DNA of 44,481 bases from a bacterium (GTDB taxonomy: Bacteria; Hydrothermota; Tepidihabitantia; SM23-42; JAOAFX01): the NCBI GenBank assembly GCA_036382775.1, contig DASVHD010000019.1, forward strand, positions 1 through 44,481, read 5' to 3'. Each line of letters starts with the position of its first letter. Position 1 is the stretch's first letter. Position numbers and translations under genes: made by a program. Below, piece after piece: positions 6,435 to 42,387 of the stretch. The notes under the pieces are model-generated. The model was not told the origin of the DNA, made no database searches, and worked only from the letters and a program-made list of their open reading frames with translations.

Positions 6435-6470
6435 ACTAGAAAGACTAAATAGACTAGAAAGACCAGATAG
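6435..6470. repeat. two 18-bp imperfect tandem repeats
   Basis: ACTAGAAAGACTAAATAG (6435-6452) is followed directly by ACTAGAAAGACCAGATAG (6453-6470), with two differences. They lie between the converging uvrC and lipoprotein genes, in a purine-rich gap that also contains near-repeats of GATACA/GATAAA type. Confidence 0.7.
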
Positions 6471-6478
6471 ACAAAAAT

Positions 6479-6915: not shown

Positions 6916-6964
6916 CCCTCACCCTTTCCCTCTCCCTTTAAAAGGGAGAGGATTAAGGTGAGGG
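6916..6964. repeat. C/G-rich interspersed palindrome
   Basis: The outer arms CCCTCACC (6916-6923) and GGTGAGGG (6957-6964) enclose CTCTCCCTTT/AAAAGGGAGAG. It forms a long imperfect hairpin just after the stop of the alpha-2-macroglobulin gene. Related C/G-rich palindromes recur at 36576, 40576 and 44451. Confidence 0.65.
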
Positions 6965-13337: not shown

Positions 13338-13437
13338 CGCTGACTTTTGCGTACCGCTTATCATTATGGAATCATATTGAAAAACGGCGCTGACTTTTGC
13401 GTACCGCTTATCATTATGGAATCATATTGAAAAACGG
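13338..13437. repeat. perfect 50-bp tandem duplication
   Basis: 13338-13387 and 13388-13437 are identical over all 50 bases (each begins CGCTGACTTTTGCGTACCGC and ends GAAAAACGG). The pair lies between the EamA stop codon and the -35 box of the zinc-ribbon promoter, 15 bp upstream of that box, so it could carry duplicated regulatory sites. Perfect identity implies a recent event, or an assembly artefact. Confidence 0.95.
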
Positions 13438-17524: not shown

Positions 17525-17549
17525 CATGCAAACAAATAAGGACCAAAAA

Positions 17550-17585
17550 TTGGTTATATGGTTAAATGGTTAAATATTTAACCAA
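17550..17585. promoter_or_regulatory. AT-rich inverted repeats upstream of glgA, possible operator
   Basis: A perfect 16-bp palindrome GGTTAAATATTTAACC (17568-17583) is nested in a wider pairing of TTGGTTA (17550-17556) with TAACCAA (17579-17585). Direct copies of ATGGTTAAAT precede it. The site lies 32-66 bp upstream of the glgA ATG. It could be a repressor operator or a weak hairpin; no regulator is recognised. Confidence 0.4.
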
Positions 17586-17615
17586 TTACTAATCACCATT
17601 TAACTAATTCTGAGC

Positions 17616-27123: not shown

Positions 27124-27197
27124 TAGATTCTTCGCTTCGCTCAGAATGACAGGAAGATGTGTCATTCTGAAGGTTTCGCAGAAACCTGAAGAATCTA
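27124..27197. repeat. nested inverted repeat between converging genes
   Basis: Outer arms TAGATTCTTC (27124-27133) and GAAGAATCTA (27188-27197) enclose TCAGAATGACA (27141-27151) and TGTCATTCTGA (27160-27170), plus a small GGTTTC/GAAACC hairpin. It belongs to the same kind of interspersed palindrome as 41876-42094 (shared CTCAGAATGACAG). The rest of 27078-27279 holds no gene. Confidence 0.75.
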
Positions 27198-32964: not shown

Positions 32965-34609
32965 AGGCACGCTGGTCATCGCCATCGCCGCACTGGCGCT
33001 GGTCAATGTCATCGCGCTGTACAAGCCGGTCTGGCAGCCGTTCGAAAAAAAGATCTATGACCTTAAATACCAAATAATGCTGCGCAGTGAACCTCAGGAA
33101 AGTATCGTGATAATTGATATCGATGAAGCCAGTCTGGCAAAACTCGGCCGGTATCAGAACTGGCCCCGGGCGTATTTCGCCGAGGTCATTGATTACCTTA
33201 AGCCGGCGGCAGCGGTCGGCATAGATATTTTCTTCGCGGAACCCGACACATTGCCCGTGATCGCGCGGCAATATTACCAGAAACCTGATTTTGATTCCAT
33301 GACCGGCAGTGCGATCCGCAGCAGCGGCAATGTGACGCTTATCTCCACGCTCGAGCAGGAACCCGTTTTTGCCGGTTTGTGTTCGACCGGGCTGGGCGAG
33401 ATAATCGCCGATAATGATGGCGTGGTTCGCCGTGGTTACTTCGCGCTCAACGGCAAAAAAACTTTTGCGGCGGTCCTTGCCGGCATCACAAAAGAGACCA
33501 AAGCTGGATCATTCCTCATAATTTACCACAGTCTGGGCTCCTTTCGTTTTATATCGTTCGTCGATGTGTATTTGAAACGTGTGCCGCAGGAATATTTTGC
33601 TGGCAAGACCATTCTTATCGGCGGTTCCGCACCCGGGCTTTTTGACTACCACGCAACGCCGTTCGCGCGGCACTTTCCTGGTATCGCGATCCAGGCCAAT
33701 CTCGTTTTGAACATGCGAAGCGGCGACCGGATCCATGAGGTGCCGTATGGTTTTGTGCTGCTTTTCACGCTGGTCGCGGTTTTGATCATTGTCTTTCTCG
33801 TGATCCGCGCTAAATATTATCTTTATATCTCCGCCATCGTAGTTATCGTGCTGCTCACGATCATCCTGTCGCTGGTGCTGTTCACTTCAAAAATGGACGC
33901 AGGCGTAGTCAGGCTATTCTATACTTTCGTCGCTGCGGTGATCGGAGCGCTGATCTACAGGTACCAGGTCGAGGAAAAAGAAAAGAAAAAGATAAAATCG
34001 ATCTTCGCCCGATATTACTCCAAGGAGCTGGTCGAGAAGGTCATCGCCAAACCGCCGAAACTGGGCGGCGAAAAGGTCGAATGCACGATACTGTTCGCGG
34101 ATATCCGCAATTTCACGCCCTACGCCGAGAAATCGTCGCCGGAAGAGGTCGGCGCTAAACTGAACCGGTTCCTGACCGAAATGGTCATAATCGTTTTCAA
34201 ATACCAGGGACGGATCGACAAATTCATCGGTGACTGCGTGATGGCGGTCTTTGGGTCTCCGGTCCAGGTAAAGAATTCAGCCTTCAACGCGTGCCAGGCA
34301 GCCCGTGAAATGGTCAAGCGGGCAAAAGAACTCGGATTCTCGATCGGTGCCGGCATAAACACCGGCGAAGTCATCAGCGGCAATTTCGGCTCGCCCATGC
34401 GCATGGAATACACTGTTATCGGCGACGCGGTCAACCTCGCGGCCCGGTTGGAAAGCCTGACCAAGGAATTCGGCGTTCAGATCATTGTCAGCGAGACTAC
34501 TTCTGCGATGGCGAAAAAGAACGAAATGGTCGAACTTCCTTTCCGCGCCCTTGGTAAAGCACGGGTGAAGGGCAAGGCTGATGAGATATCCGTGTATGAA
34601 TTGCAATAA
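32948..34609 (+). CDS. CHASE2-domain class III adenylate cyclase
   Basis: Makes cAMP from ATP in response to an extracytoplasmic signal. The 553 residues contain an N-terminal membrane anchor (about 8-26), a periplasmic CHASE2 sensor (to about 265; IVIIDIDEASLAKLG, AAAVGIDIFFAEPD), three membrane helices (268-338), then a catalytic domain with metal aspartates D385 (FADIRNF) and D429 (DKFIGDC), adenine-specifying K425 and a Thr seven residues before the catalytic Asn in YTVIGDAVNLAARLE. Lys/Thr is the pair seen in CyaC-type adenylate cyclases, so ATP rather than GTP is likely. It is the last gene of the operon, and its TAA is 5 nt before an inverted repeat that starts the next cassette. Confidence 0.93.
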   Translation: MAKQLKGTLVIAIAALALVNVIALYKPVWQPFEKKIYDLKYQIMLRSEPQESIVIIDIDEASLAKLGRYQNWPRAYFAEVIDYLKPAAAVGIDIFFAEPDTLPVIARQYYQKPDFDSMTGSAIRSSGNVTLISTLEQEPVFAGLCSTGLGEIIADNDGVVRRGYFALNGKKTFAAVLAGITKETKAGSFLIIYHSLGSFRFISFVDVYLKRVPQEYFAGKTILIGGSAPGLFDYHATPFARHFPGIAIQANLVLNMRSGDRIHEVPYGFVLLFTLVAVLIIVFLVIRAKYYLYISAIVVIVLLTIILSLVLFTSKMDAGVVRLFYTFVAAVIGALIYRYQVEEKEKKKIKSIFARYYSKELVEKVIAKPPKLGGEKVECTILFADIRNFTPYAEKSSPEEVGAKLNRFLTEMVIIVFKYQGRIDKFIGDCVMAVFGSPVQVKNSAFNACQAAREMVKRAKELGFSIGAGINTGEVISGNFGSPMRMEYTVIGDAVNLAARLESLTKEFGVQIIVSETTSAMAKKNEMVELPFRALGKARVKGKADEISVYELQ

Positions 34610-34614
34610 GGAAT

Positions 34615-34635
34615 GAAGTTAAGAGGTTATGAAGA
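34615..34635. repeat. left 21-bp terminal inverted repeat of the four-helix-bundle cassette
   Basis: The 21 bases from GAAGTTAAGAGG to ATGAAGA are the exact reverse complement of 35175-35195. The repeat itself carries an AAGAGG ribosome site and the first ATG of the enclosed gene. Confidence 0.92.
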
Positions 34636-35036
34636 TGGGAGGCTATGATAAAATGGATGCCGGTAAAAAGATTAGACATTACAGAGAGCTTGACGTTTAT
34701 AGACTGGCTTTTGATGCAGCTATGGCAATTTTTGATGCATCTAAAAAATTCCCCACAGGCGAAAAATTTTCACTATCAAGCCAAATTGTGCGTTCTTCCA
34801 GGTCGGTATGTTCAAATATTGCTGAAGCCTGGCGTAAACGCAAATACAAAGCGTTCTTTATAAATAAGTTAACAGACTCTATGTCAGAAGCTTCTGAAAC
34901 TCAAACATGGCTTGAATTCTGCCATGCCTGCAAGTATATCGATGAAAACTTTTTTAAAAAACTGGATTCTACATATGAAGTCATCATCGCGAAGCTTAAC
35001 ACAATGGAGCGTAAAGCTGATACATTTTGCTTCTAG
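34629..35036 (+). CDS. four-helix-bundle protein (23S rRNA intervening-sequence protein family)
   Basis: The 135-residue protein matches the S23/IVP family, first found encoded in intervening sequences of 23S rRNA genes in Leptospira and others: HYRELDVYRLAFDAAMAIFD, FPTGEKFSLSSQIVRSSRSVCSNIAEAWRKRK, and ASETQTWLEFCHACKYI, forming four helices. These proteins make pentamers, and no function is established. Three ATGs (34629, 34635, 34653) could serve; the first two lie in or at the end of the left inverted repeat behind AAGAGG, the third behind GGGAGG. The gene sits alone between 21-bp inverted repeats with a long purine/pyrimidine-biased tract at its 3' side, unlike its neighbours, which suggests insertion. 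Confidence 0.88.
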   Translation: MKMGGYDKMDAGKKIRHYRELDVYRLAFDAAMAIFDASKKFPTGEKFSLSSQIVRSSRSVCSNIAEAWRKRKYKAFFINKLTDSMSEASETQTWLEFCHACKYIDENFFKKLDSTYEVIIAKLNTMERKADTFCF

Positions 35037-35085
35037 CGCAAATGTGTATAATAAAAGATATTTATTTGATGCGCTCAGTTCTTTT

Positions 35086-35205
35086 TTAAAGCTTCAAATC
35101 TTCATATCCTCCCCTCTTCTGTCTCTCCCCGCTCTTCAAATCTTCCGATCTTCTCATCTTCAATCTTTTTCCGCTCTTCATAACCTCTTAACTTCGTAAC
35201 TTCAA
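35086..35205. repeat. polypyrimidine tract of degenerate CTTC/TCTTC units
   Basis: For about 120 bp the plus strand is largely C and T, with recurring CTTCAAATCTTC, CGCTCTTC and CTTCTCATCTTC units, ending in the right inverted repeat. The complement reads as GAAGAT/GAAGAG units like those beside the left repeat. No gene is visible in it. Confidence 0.75.
35175..35195. repeat. right 21-bp terminal inverted repeat of the four-helix-bundle cassette
   Basis: TCTTCATAACC to TTAACTTC is an exact 21-bp inverted match to 34615-34635. It ends 16 bp before the MFS start codon. A partial second copy, GTAACTTCAAT, follows it. Confidence 0.92.
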
Positions 35206-35210
35206 TCATT

Positions 35211-36533
35211 ATGAAAAATGGCGGTAAAATCTCGATCATCGAAGGCGCGTTCGCGCAATTTCACATCACTCTTACCGGCGGTATGTTCCTCACGGCATTC
35301 GCCCTATATATCGGCGTCAATGCTTTTCAAATGGGTTTACTCGCCGCGATCCCTTCGATCATGGCAAGCGTGGGGTTTGTATCCGCGTATCTCGCCTATA
35401 CGTTCGGCAAGCGAAAATTGCTATGCGTCTACACGTCAGGAATTGGCCGGGGTTTATTCATTGCTTTTATTGTCGCGCTAGCTTTTAACTTCAGAATATC
35501 GATACAATTATTCTTTCTGGTAATATTTTTATTTAACTTCTTTTTGTCCTTTTCAGGCAACCTTTGGACATCATGGATGAGCGATCTTATTCCCAGAGAA
35601 GCCAGAGGTAAATATTTCGGTATCCGCAACACGATCATAAGCGGAATAGGTATGATCGTTAATTATACAGGCGGGATACTCCTTGACCGCTTCACTCAGA
35701 ATACAGCATTCTTGATGATATTTTCAGTTAGTGTCATGTGTTCCACGATCGCCGCGCTAATCCTTTCATCACAACCAGAACCTGTCTTTGAGAAAAAAGT
35801 GATCAAACTTGAAACAGTTTTTCTGACACCTCTGCGCGATAAAAATTTCGTTTCCCTTGTAACCTTTGTTTCTTTCTGGTATCTTTTTGCCGGTATTGCC
35901 GCGCCTTTCTGGGTCGTGCATATGATAAAATTCCTGAAGATGTCTTACTCCACGATCGCCATCTATTCGATCATTGCCGGTATATCCAGTCTCGGCTTTC
36001 AGTTATTATGGGGCAAAATGATCGACAAAACAAGATCCAAACCCGTACTGACGATCAATTTCATCGGTGTTATATTCCTGCCCTTAATCTGGCTTTTTGC
36101 CAGGCCAAATTTCACACTGCCGATCTGGATCGATGCCTTTTTCAGCGGCGGTTTCTGGAGCGGTATAAACCTTAGTTTGTTCAATATCCTGCTGAGCCTG
36201 ACCGAGGACAAGGAAATCAAGGAATCTTATTTCGCTGTTTTCTCGACGATCACCGGCATCTGCGGATTCCTGTCTTCACTATTAGGCGGTCTGATCGCGC
36301 AGGTCTTGTCGAGATTTGAGTGGCAGTTCCTGGGCCAAACATTTATTAACTTCCATGTTCTGTTCCTGGGCACGACGCTGTTCAGGGCGATAAGTCTTGG
36401 CTTCCTCCGTCAGGTCCATGAAAAAGAAGCGTATCCCACGTTGTATACGCTGCAGATGATCGGCGACTACACGGTCCGCAGGTTGAACGAATATAAGGAC
36501 CTGGTCCTCAACGCCCTCCGGTTCACCAAGTAA
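35211..36533 (+). CDS. major facilitator superfamily transporter
   Basis: The 440-residue, mostly hydrophobic protein has about twelve predicted membrane helices in two halves. The first starts FHITLTGGMFLTAFALYIGV, with a YTFGKRK loop after helix two like the MFS motif A region. The second half starts FVSLVTFVSFWYLFAGIAAPFW, with GKMIDKTRSKPV in the matching loop. It would move a small solute across the inner membrane, but substrate and direction cannot be read from sequence. The ATG has no clear ribosome site and lies just after the inserted cassette, so it may have lost its original leader or promoter. No partner gene points to a substrate. Confidence 0.88.
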   Translation: MKNGGKISIIEGAFAQFHITLTGGMFLTAFALYIGVNAFQMGLLAAIPSIMASVGFVSAYLAYTFGKRKLLCVYTSGIGRGLFIAFIVALAFNFRISIQLFFLVIFLFNFFLSFSGNLWTSWMSDLIPREARGKYFGIRNTIISGIGMIVNYTGGILLDRFTQNTAFLMIFSVSVMCSTIAALILSSQPEPVFEKKVIKLETVFLTPLRDKNFVSLVTFVSFWYLFAGIAAPFWVVHMIKFLKMSYSTIAIYSIIAGISSLGFQLLWGKMIDKTRSKPVLTINFIGVIFLPLIWLFARPNFTLPIWIDAFFSGGFWSGINLSLFNILLSLTEDKEIKESYFAVFSTITGICGFLSSLLGGLIAQVLSRFEWQFLGQTFINFHVLFLGTTLFRAISLGFLRQVHEKEAYPTLYTLQMIGDYTVRRLNEYKDLVLNALRFTK

Positions 36534-42327: not shown

Positions 42328-42387
42328 TGTAGGGCAAGGCTTTAGCCTTGCGAAGAAATAATTGCAAACCTGAAGGTTTGCCCTACG
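42328..42387. repeat. REPIN-like inverted pair with GTAGGGCAA head
   Basis: The left half is TGTAGGGCAAGG with stem AAGGCTTTAGCCTT. The right half has stem AAACCTGAAGGTTT and ends TTGCCCTACG. It belongs to the family at 1088, 1205 and 4535 but has a different base next to the GTAG. It fills the gap between the tRNA and dtd. Confidence 0.75.

Follow-up and report, generated by a model that had tools for sequence, protein, structure and literature searches.

A probable minimal mobile DNA element composed of a single Avd-fold IVP gene between inverted arrays of degenerate 7–8-nt units

Proteins of the family PF05635/TIGR02436 (23S_rRNA_IVP), here referred to as IVP, are annotated in very many genomes without function. 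A member of the same family (S23p) is encoded in the IVS of the 23S rRNA of Coxiella burnetii, an element of about 430–600 bp in which the gene is placed between inverted repeats, and which has been termed selfish, contains a 28-bp terminal stem cut by RNase III and carries tandem GACAGAT heptamers directly before the gene (PMC4990558). A different system, the REPIN/RAYT dyads, combines a Y1 (HUH) tyrosine transposase, which acts on short palindromes, with a cognate repeat that flanks its gene, co-varies with the protein and is found in dispersed gene-less inverted pairs in intergenic regions (PMC3116915). Degenerate 7-nt arrays dispersed between genes have been described with the units GGGAATC in Xanthomonas and GGGGA(C/T)T in Nostoc, including 70 close inverted pairs in Xcc, and their role was left open (PMC4692102). 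Finally, an association between IVP and CRISPR has been reported (PMC10910872). The literature compared in this study consists of open-licence papers, and an association of IVP genes with arrays may have been noticed earlier in subscription journals, preprints or curators' notes.

We have analysed a contiguous stretch of 44,481 nucleotides of bacterial DNA (the window), which contains an IVP gene together with the following features:

17545–17605, no strand assigned: gene-less palindromic array of the L005 family, unit GGTTAAAT, both termini as in the L005 IVP gene of the same genome
32948–34609, + strand: upstream neighbour, CHASE2 and adenylate/guanylate cyclase gene
34608–34652, + strand: left inverted array, degenerate 8-nt units GAAGTTAA GAGGTTAT GAAGATGG GAGGCTAT
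34615–34635, + strand: 21-bp core of the left arm, with its perfect inverse at 35175–35195
34629–35036, + strand: IVP gene (PF05635/TIGR02436), 135 amino acids counted from the first ATG
35092–35204, − strand: right inverted array, CTTCATAACCTCTTAACTTC and degenerate units, the 8-nt unit of the left array on the − strand
35175–35195, − strand: 21-bp core of the right arm
35211–36533, + strand: downstream neighbour, MFS transporter gene

The assignment of the IVP gene is secure, with matches to PF05635 (E 4e-29) and TIGR02436 (E 1e-27) that score above the respective curated cut-offs (101.5 bits vs 33.8 and 96.5 vs 24). As described in the initial annotation of this DNA, the gene is bracketed by a perfect 21-bp inverted repeat (GAAGTTAAGAGGTTATGAAGA), which is exact at both positions, and the cassette fills the whole gap between the cyclase stop (34609) and the MFS ATG (35211). 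The 21-bp core is contained in a 33-nt pair of 85% complementarity, which no other inverted pair within 2 kb exceeds in length anywhere in the 44-kb window. Rather than a single TIR, it constitutes the best-matching portion of two inverted arrays of the degenerate 8-nt unit GARGNTAN, with a left arm of about 45 bp, which starts directly after the cyclase stop and reaches into the beginning of the IVP gene, and a right arm of about 110 bp, which ends 6 bp upstream of the MFS ATG. The commonest units of this array family in the window's genome are GAGGTTAT, GAAGTTAT and GAAGTTAA. The left repeat was also said to supply an AAGAGG ribosome site and the first ATG, and both are present, but translation probably initiates further in, at the in-frame ATGs at 34635 (spaced by 8 nt from AAGAGG) or 34653 (following GGGAGG), because just 2 nt separate AAGAGG and the first ATG at 34629. 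Placed between the cyclase and MFS genes, the cassette is not located in 23S rRNA, and the Rfam matches of the window are confined to a distant tRNA. Repeats of other kinds in the window include 50 bp of intergenic sequence that are perfectly duplicated in tandem (13338–13437) and REP-like palindromes such as TGTAGCCGCAGGCTTTAGCCTGCG (1088–1228, 6916–6964, 27128–27183 and 42329–42386).

The neighbouring genes of the cassette are found in the same order in three genomes of the same family (G001, G002 and G003), at 60% identity for the cyclase and 69–71% for the MFS transporter, with 46–53 bp between the matched segments and neither an IVP gene nor an array between them in any of the three. The comparison shows the window cassette to be an insertion, with loss in G001–G003 formally possible since all three represent one genus. 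It is consistent with the earlier proposal of a free-standing cassette that moves separately from rRNA, and no ortholog carrying the gene at the same site without the repeats was found among the relatives. By eye, an apparent decayed IVP gene between hairpin-type arrays follows the cyclase ortholog of G013 (L127:3427–3900), where it adjoins a long AAGTTCCAAGAACC array.

A clearer case of insertion is provided by a second IVP element (L014, unit GATTGGAAG), whose site is filled in G028, G034 and G036 and empty in G030 and G032, where the stop of the upstream gene and the start of the downstream gene overlap. G032 contains the L014 gene elsewhere, at 78% DNA identity and with two internal stops; its arms there are those of the L014 element, and its neighbours are tRNA-Ser and gltX (both read by eye). 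Thus, for the window cassette and L014, occupied and empty orthologous sites coexist in the manner of an insertion sequence or transposon, and neither of the two empty sites contains an array. Comparisons of G028 with G030/G032 and of the window's genome (G000) with G001–G003 revealed neither a target-site duplication nor a definable exact insertion boundary at these sites, which are diverged or have overlapping frames. From this comparative genomics, we infer that IVP elements are mobile. Two further elements of the window's genome interrupt what we take, from the reading frames and the usual organization of these operons, to be linked genes, with L005 presumably splitting sucC from sucD and L002 presumably splitting hdrA from the following mvhD-like gene. 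The L014 site itself looks like a hot spot, since it is occupied in G044 by a short GATT palindrome and, judged by eye, a nucleotidyltransferase/HEPN-like gene pair (L249:2360–3250), and in G038 by a DUF559-like gene.

The relationship between array and protein becomes apparent when IVP genes at different sites are compared. Of 17 non-syntenic pairs whose proteins are at least 60% identical, 14 have a common arm unit, in each case with matching and never with opposite orientation, compared to 0.3–0.6% of pairs below 50% identity. Relatives of the window IVP with about 59–72% identity are encoded in G013, G019, G017 and G012, at unrelated sites and with related arms. The expectation of the initial annotation that other IVP copies would have the same termini is thus borne out by these relatives (L083, L091, L093 and L079) and by about 50 gene-less arm matches elsewhere in the window's genome. 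Together, the comparisons show that each IVP subfamily appears to possess its own array unit, common to related IVPs at unrelated sites.

Arrays also occur without a gene. With up to three mismatches allowed, 26 matches to the 21-mer are found in the window's genome, whereas the reversed control yields none, and several of the 26 form short inverted pairs in intergenic gaps that lack an IVP gene. A related 20-mer finds 52 matches in the window's genome, none in its sisters G001–G003 and 37, 37 and 23 in G013, G019 and G017, all of which contain cognate IVP genes. There are just two in G012 despite a cognate IVP at 59% identity, 17–18 in G015 and G023, which belong to the genus of the holders G013 and G017 and lack an intact cognate IVP (with a 60%-identical fragment in G015), and 0–8 in the remaining genomes. 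Compared between the five genomes with a cognate IVP of at least 59% identity and the others, match numbers differ with p 1.5e-5 (Mann-Whitney, uncorrected for kinship). By these counts, genomes that possess a cognate IVP gene tend to contain more arrays. The array at 17545–17605, judged from its termini, is a putative MITE-like gene-less derivative of the L005 family; the GGTTAAAT array family is nearly confined to the window's genome, and its short copies have in common with the full element a terminal string that is in part non-repetitive (CACCAGTTACCATTTAACCAA for copy L163). In the same genomes, arrays without a gene are frequent, with 20% of 370 intergenic gaps containing one, and array density is low in small samples of IVP-free genomes, some of which are AT-rich. 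A short degenerate array (ACTAGAAAGACCAAATAG) at 6435–6472 of the window has relatives elsewhere in the genome and no IVP gene nearby, and a palindromic array without a gene (L004:2177–2410) displays a second arm type with TGGAAGT and variable mini-hairpin units.

The described architecture extends well beyond a single locus. PF05635 is present in 45 of the 61 related genomes searched, with up to 31 copies per genome. When the left flank was compared with the inverted right flank for 100 IVP genes of related genomes, the scores had a median of 28.5 and those of mismatched pairs a median of 18; 43 genes exceeded the 99th percentile of the mismatched pairs, which excludes chance. A scan of GTDB genomes with an alignment of three fairly close IVPs provided 80 loci (76 of them usable) from Flavobacteriia, Rhizobiales, Cyanobacteria, Planctomycetes, Acidobacteria, Geobacter, CPR and others, of which 33 exceeded the same kind of cut-off (median 32.5 vs 18). 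Scores of at least 24 were reached by 7 of 14 IVP genes and by 13 of 357 other genes below 1 kb in about 0.8 Mb of two genomes. A period of 7 or 8 dominates in 148 of the 169 flanks scored as periodic, with 2 of 136 shuffled flanks passing. In cyanobacteria, inverted arrays were recognized by eye in all 10 plasmid IVP copies, some of them short or degenerate, and the IVP genes of Nostoc, Calothrix, Anabaena and Phormidium have heptamer arms, several of which are G-rich. An origin of the arms in chance or low complexity is ruled out by the mismatched-arm, shuffled and reversed-pattern controls. About half of the IVP genes fall below the strict arm-score cut-off and some have no arms, such as L043, L046 and L055, which are located beside tRNA-like sequence and possibly represent vertically kept copies. 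None of 20 loci scanned was located within rRNA. A phage origin was rejected, as one tblastn query, the Xcc0516 homologue, had no match among 50,697 phage records. These surveys show that inverted arrays around IVP genes are apparently widespread in bacteria.

The window IVP is predicted with high confidence to form a four-helix bundle (AlphaFold pLDDT 92.8), with 2GSC and 2RLD as best PDB matches and the same fold as Avd (4DWL). Its invariant polar residues encompass Q52, R55, S59, N63, E66 and E90. 2GSC is XCC0516 of Xanthomonas campestris, and the solved Xanthomonas homologue forms a ring of five. The protein contains no recognizable transposase, catalytic or nuclease domain, with PF05635 as its sole Pfam match. 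A retroelement or DGR was considered and rejected, as no match for a reverse transcriptase (RVT_1) was obtained in the window's genome or in 51 of the 61 genomes searched. We consider the feature to be a minimal mobile DNA element, consisting of one Avd-fold IVP gene between inverted degenerate arrays of 7–8-nt units, with a probability of roughly 0.8. On the basis of the sequence relationships, the IVP protein most likely recognizes its own array and, as suggested by the co-variation of unit and protein, would drive the spread of the element. In a possible mechanism, the protein, as a pentameric ring like that of its Xanthomonas homologue, would bind several units of its own array and thereby bring the two ends of the element together, which could allow the full element and its gene-less derivatives to be copied or moved into intergenic sites. 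With no reverse transcriptase detectable, strand transfer might be carried out by host replication or repair, by an unlinked transposase or by an unrecognized activity of the invariant polar residues.

The inverted arms could also be viewed from the perspective of the transcript. In a free-standing IVS-like RNA element, the gene would reside in the loop of a stem that is excised by RNase III, as in 23S rRNA, and maintained by selection, a reading favored by the terminal stem of the Coxiella IVS and its heptamers before the same gene. Such a loop was part of the initial annotation, and the long stem is indeed predicted (23 bp, z −3.2), but it does not appear to be the object of selection. G-U-compatible mismatches are not in excess (112 vs 104 in 68 arm pairs), an arm is matched nearly as well by those of other family members as by its own partner (median 31 vs 35.5; 32 vs 32), and many arrays are single or degenerate. 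Since there is no G-U polarity and cross-locus arms match nearly equally, the preserved entity would be the motif and not a register-specific duplex; selection on an RNA duplex was thus rejected, and we regard this explanation as very doubtful. Still less credible are ordinary tandem repeats made by slippage, into which IVP genes have inserted by happenstance. The frequent gene-less arrays might be understood in this way, and polymerase slippage has been considered for the heptamer repeats of Xanthomonas and Nostoc (PMC4692102). However, the arrays are inverted around the gene with fixed orientation, track the IVP subfamily and are missing from empty orthologous sites, which makes this origin highly improbable.

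Two further explanations concern the role of the protein. IVP lacks a known catalytic domain, and relatives carry genes with Y1-transposase-like, RAYT-type N-termini and their own inverted flanks (L108:18818–19715 and L117:3095–4073 in G016), so that the palindromic arrays could be moved in trans by an unlinked transposase, for example of the Y1/RAYT type, with IVP as cargo. An unrelated transposase would, however, predict neither the tracking of the IVP protein by the unit (14/17 vs <1%) nor the tendency of array number to follow the cognate IVP across genomes, and we find it unlikely that IVP is a mere passenger. Arrays extend across the beginning of the IVP gene and occupy many intergenic gaps near genes, as might be expected if IVP were a DNA- or RNA-binding regulator that controls itself and many other genes via array sites, with movement being incidental. 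Yet, these sites show no obvious tie to conserved target genes and occur in both orientations, whereas the IVP gene is found with its arms at differing sites and empty orthologous sites exist, and regulation as the primary role is quite improbable.

If IVP genes and their arrays constitute a mobile element, as we favor, a first testable explanation would be at hand for the puzzling short-repeat arrays of cyanobacteria, Xanthomonas and others. The subfamily-specific unit, the dispersed gene-less copies and the tendency of array number to track the gene make the roles of IVP and array amenable to testing. With odds slightly better than even, we propose that IVP genes and their subfamily-specific 7–8-nt arrays represent a mobile DNA class of their own throughout the bacteria. 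In this class, a four-helix bundle that is not a transposase would read tandem arrays by sequence, and its visible traces would include the cyanobacterial STRR, the Xanthomonas GGGAATC arrays and the rRNA IVS. STRR in rnpB are reportedly the subject of Vioque 1997. The IVP architecture observed in cyanobacteria may explain their orphan heptamer repeats. The rRNA IVS might also have originated from IVP elements, which could likewise account for the presence of IVP genes within operons and CRISPR loci. On a plasmid of Anabaena sp. 90, an IVP element with AGGTGAC arrays (L348:977–1345) separates cas6 from cas4 in a type I-D CRISPR locus, and this element may account for the reported IVP-CRISPR association.

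Among known systems, the fold of IVP is shared with Avd of DGRs (PDB 4DWL; TM 0.71 normalized to the query and 0.88 to the target), a similarity that is also detectable in sequence (phrog_3206, E 1.3e-6), although DGRs differ by their reverse transcriptase, for which the window's genome and 51 of the 61 genomes searched gave no match. Functionally, IVP elements resemble REPIN/RAYT dyads in that the gene is flanked by its cognate repeat, repeat and protein co-vary, and gene-less inverted pairs are dispersed in intergenic regions. In place of the Y1 transposase, however, they encode a four-helix bundle for which a nuclease motif is not known, and they terminate in tandem 7–8-nt arrays. As in the 23S rRNA IVS, the terminal inverted repeats of the window element can form a stem around the gene; the 28-bp stem and the heptamers give the Coxiella IVS what looks like the same architecture. 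Unlike the IVS, however, the window cassette is located between protein-coding genes, it terminates in degenerate arrays characteristic of the particular IVP subfamily, it has gene-less dispersed derivatives and it bears no sign of a selected RNA stem. The heptamer arrays of Xanthomonas and Nostoc resemble the arms of IVP elements but were tied to no gene in their description (PMC4692102), and by analogy these orphan arrays would fit as traces of IVP elements.
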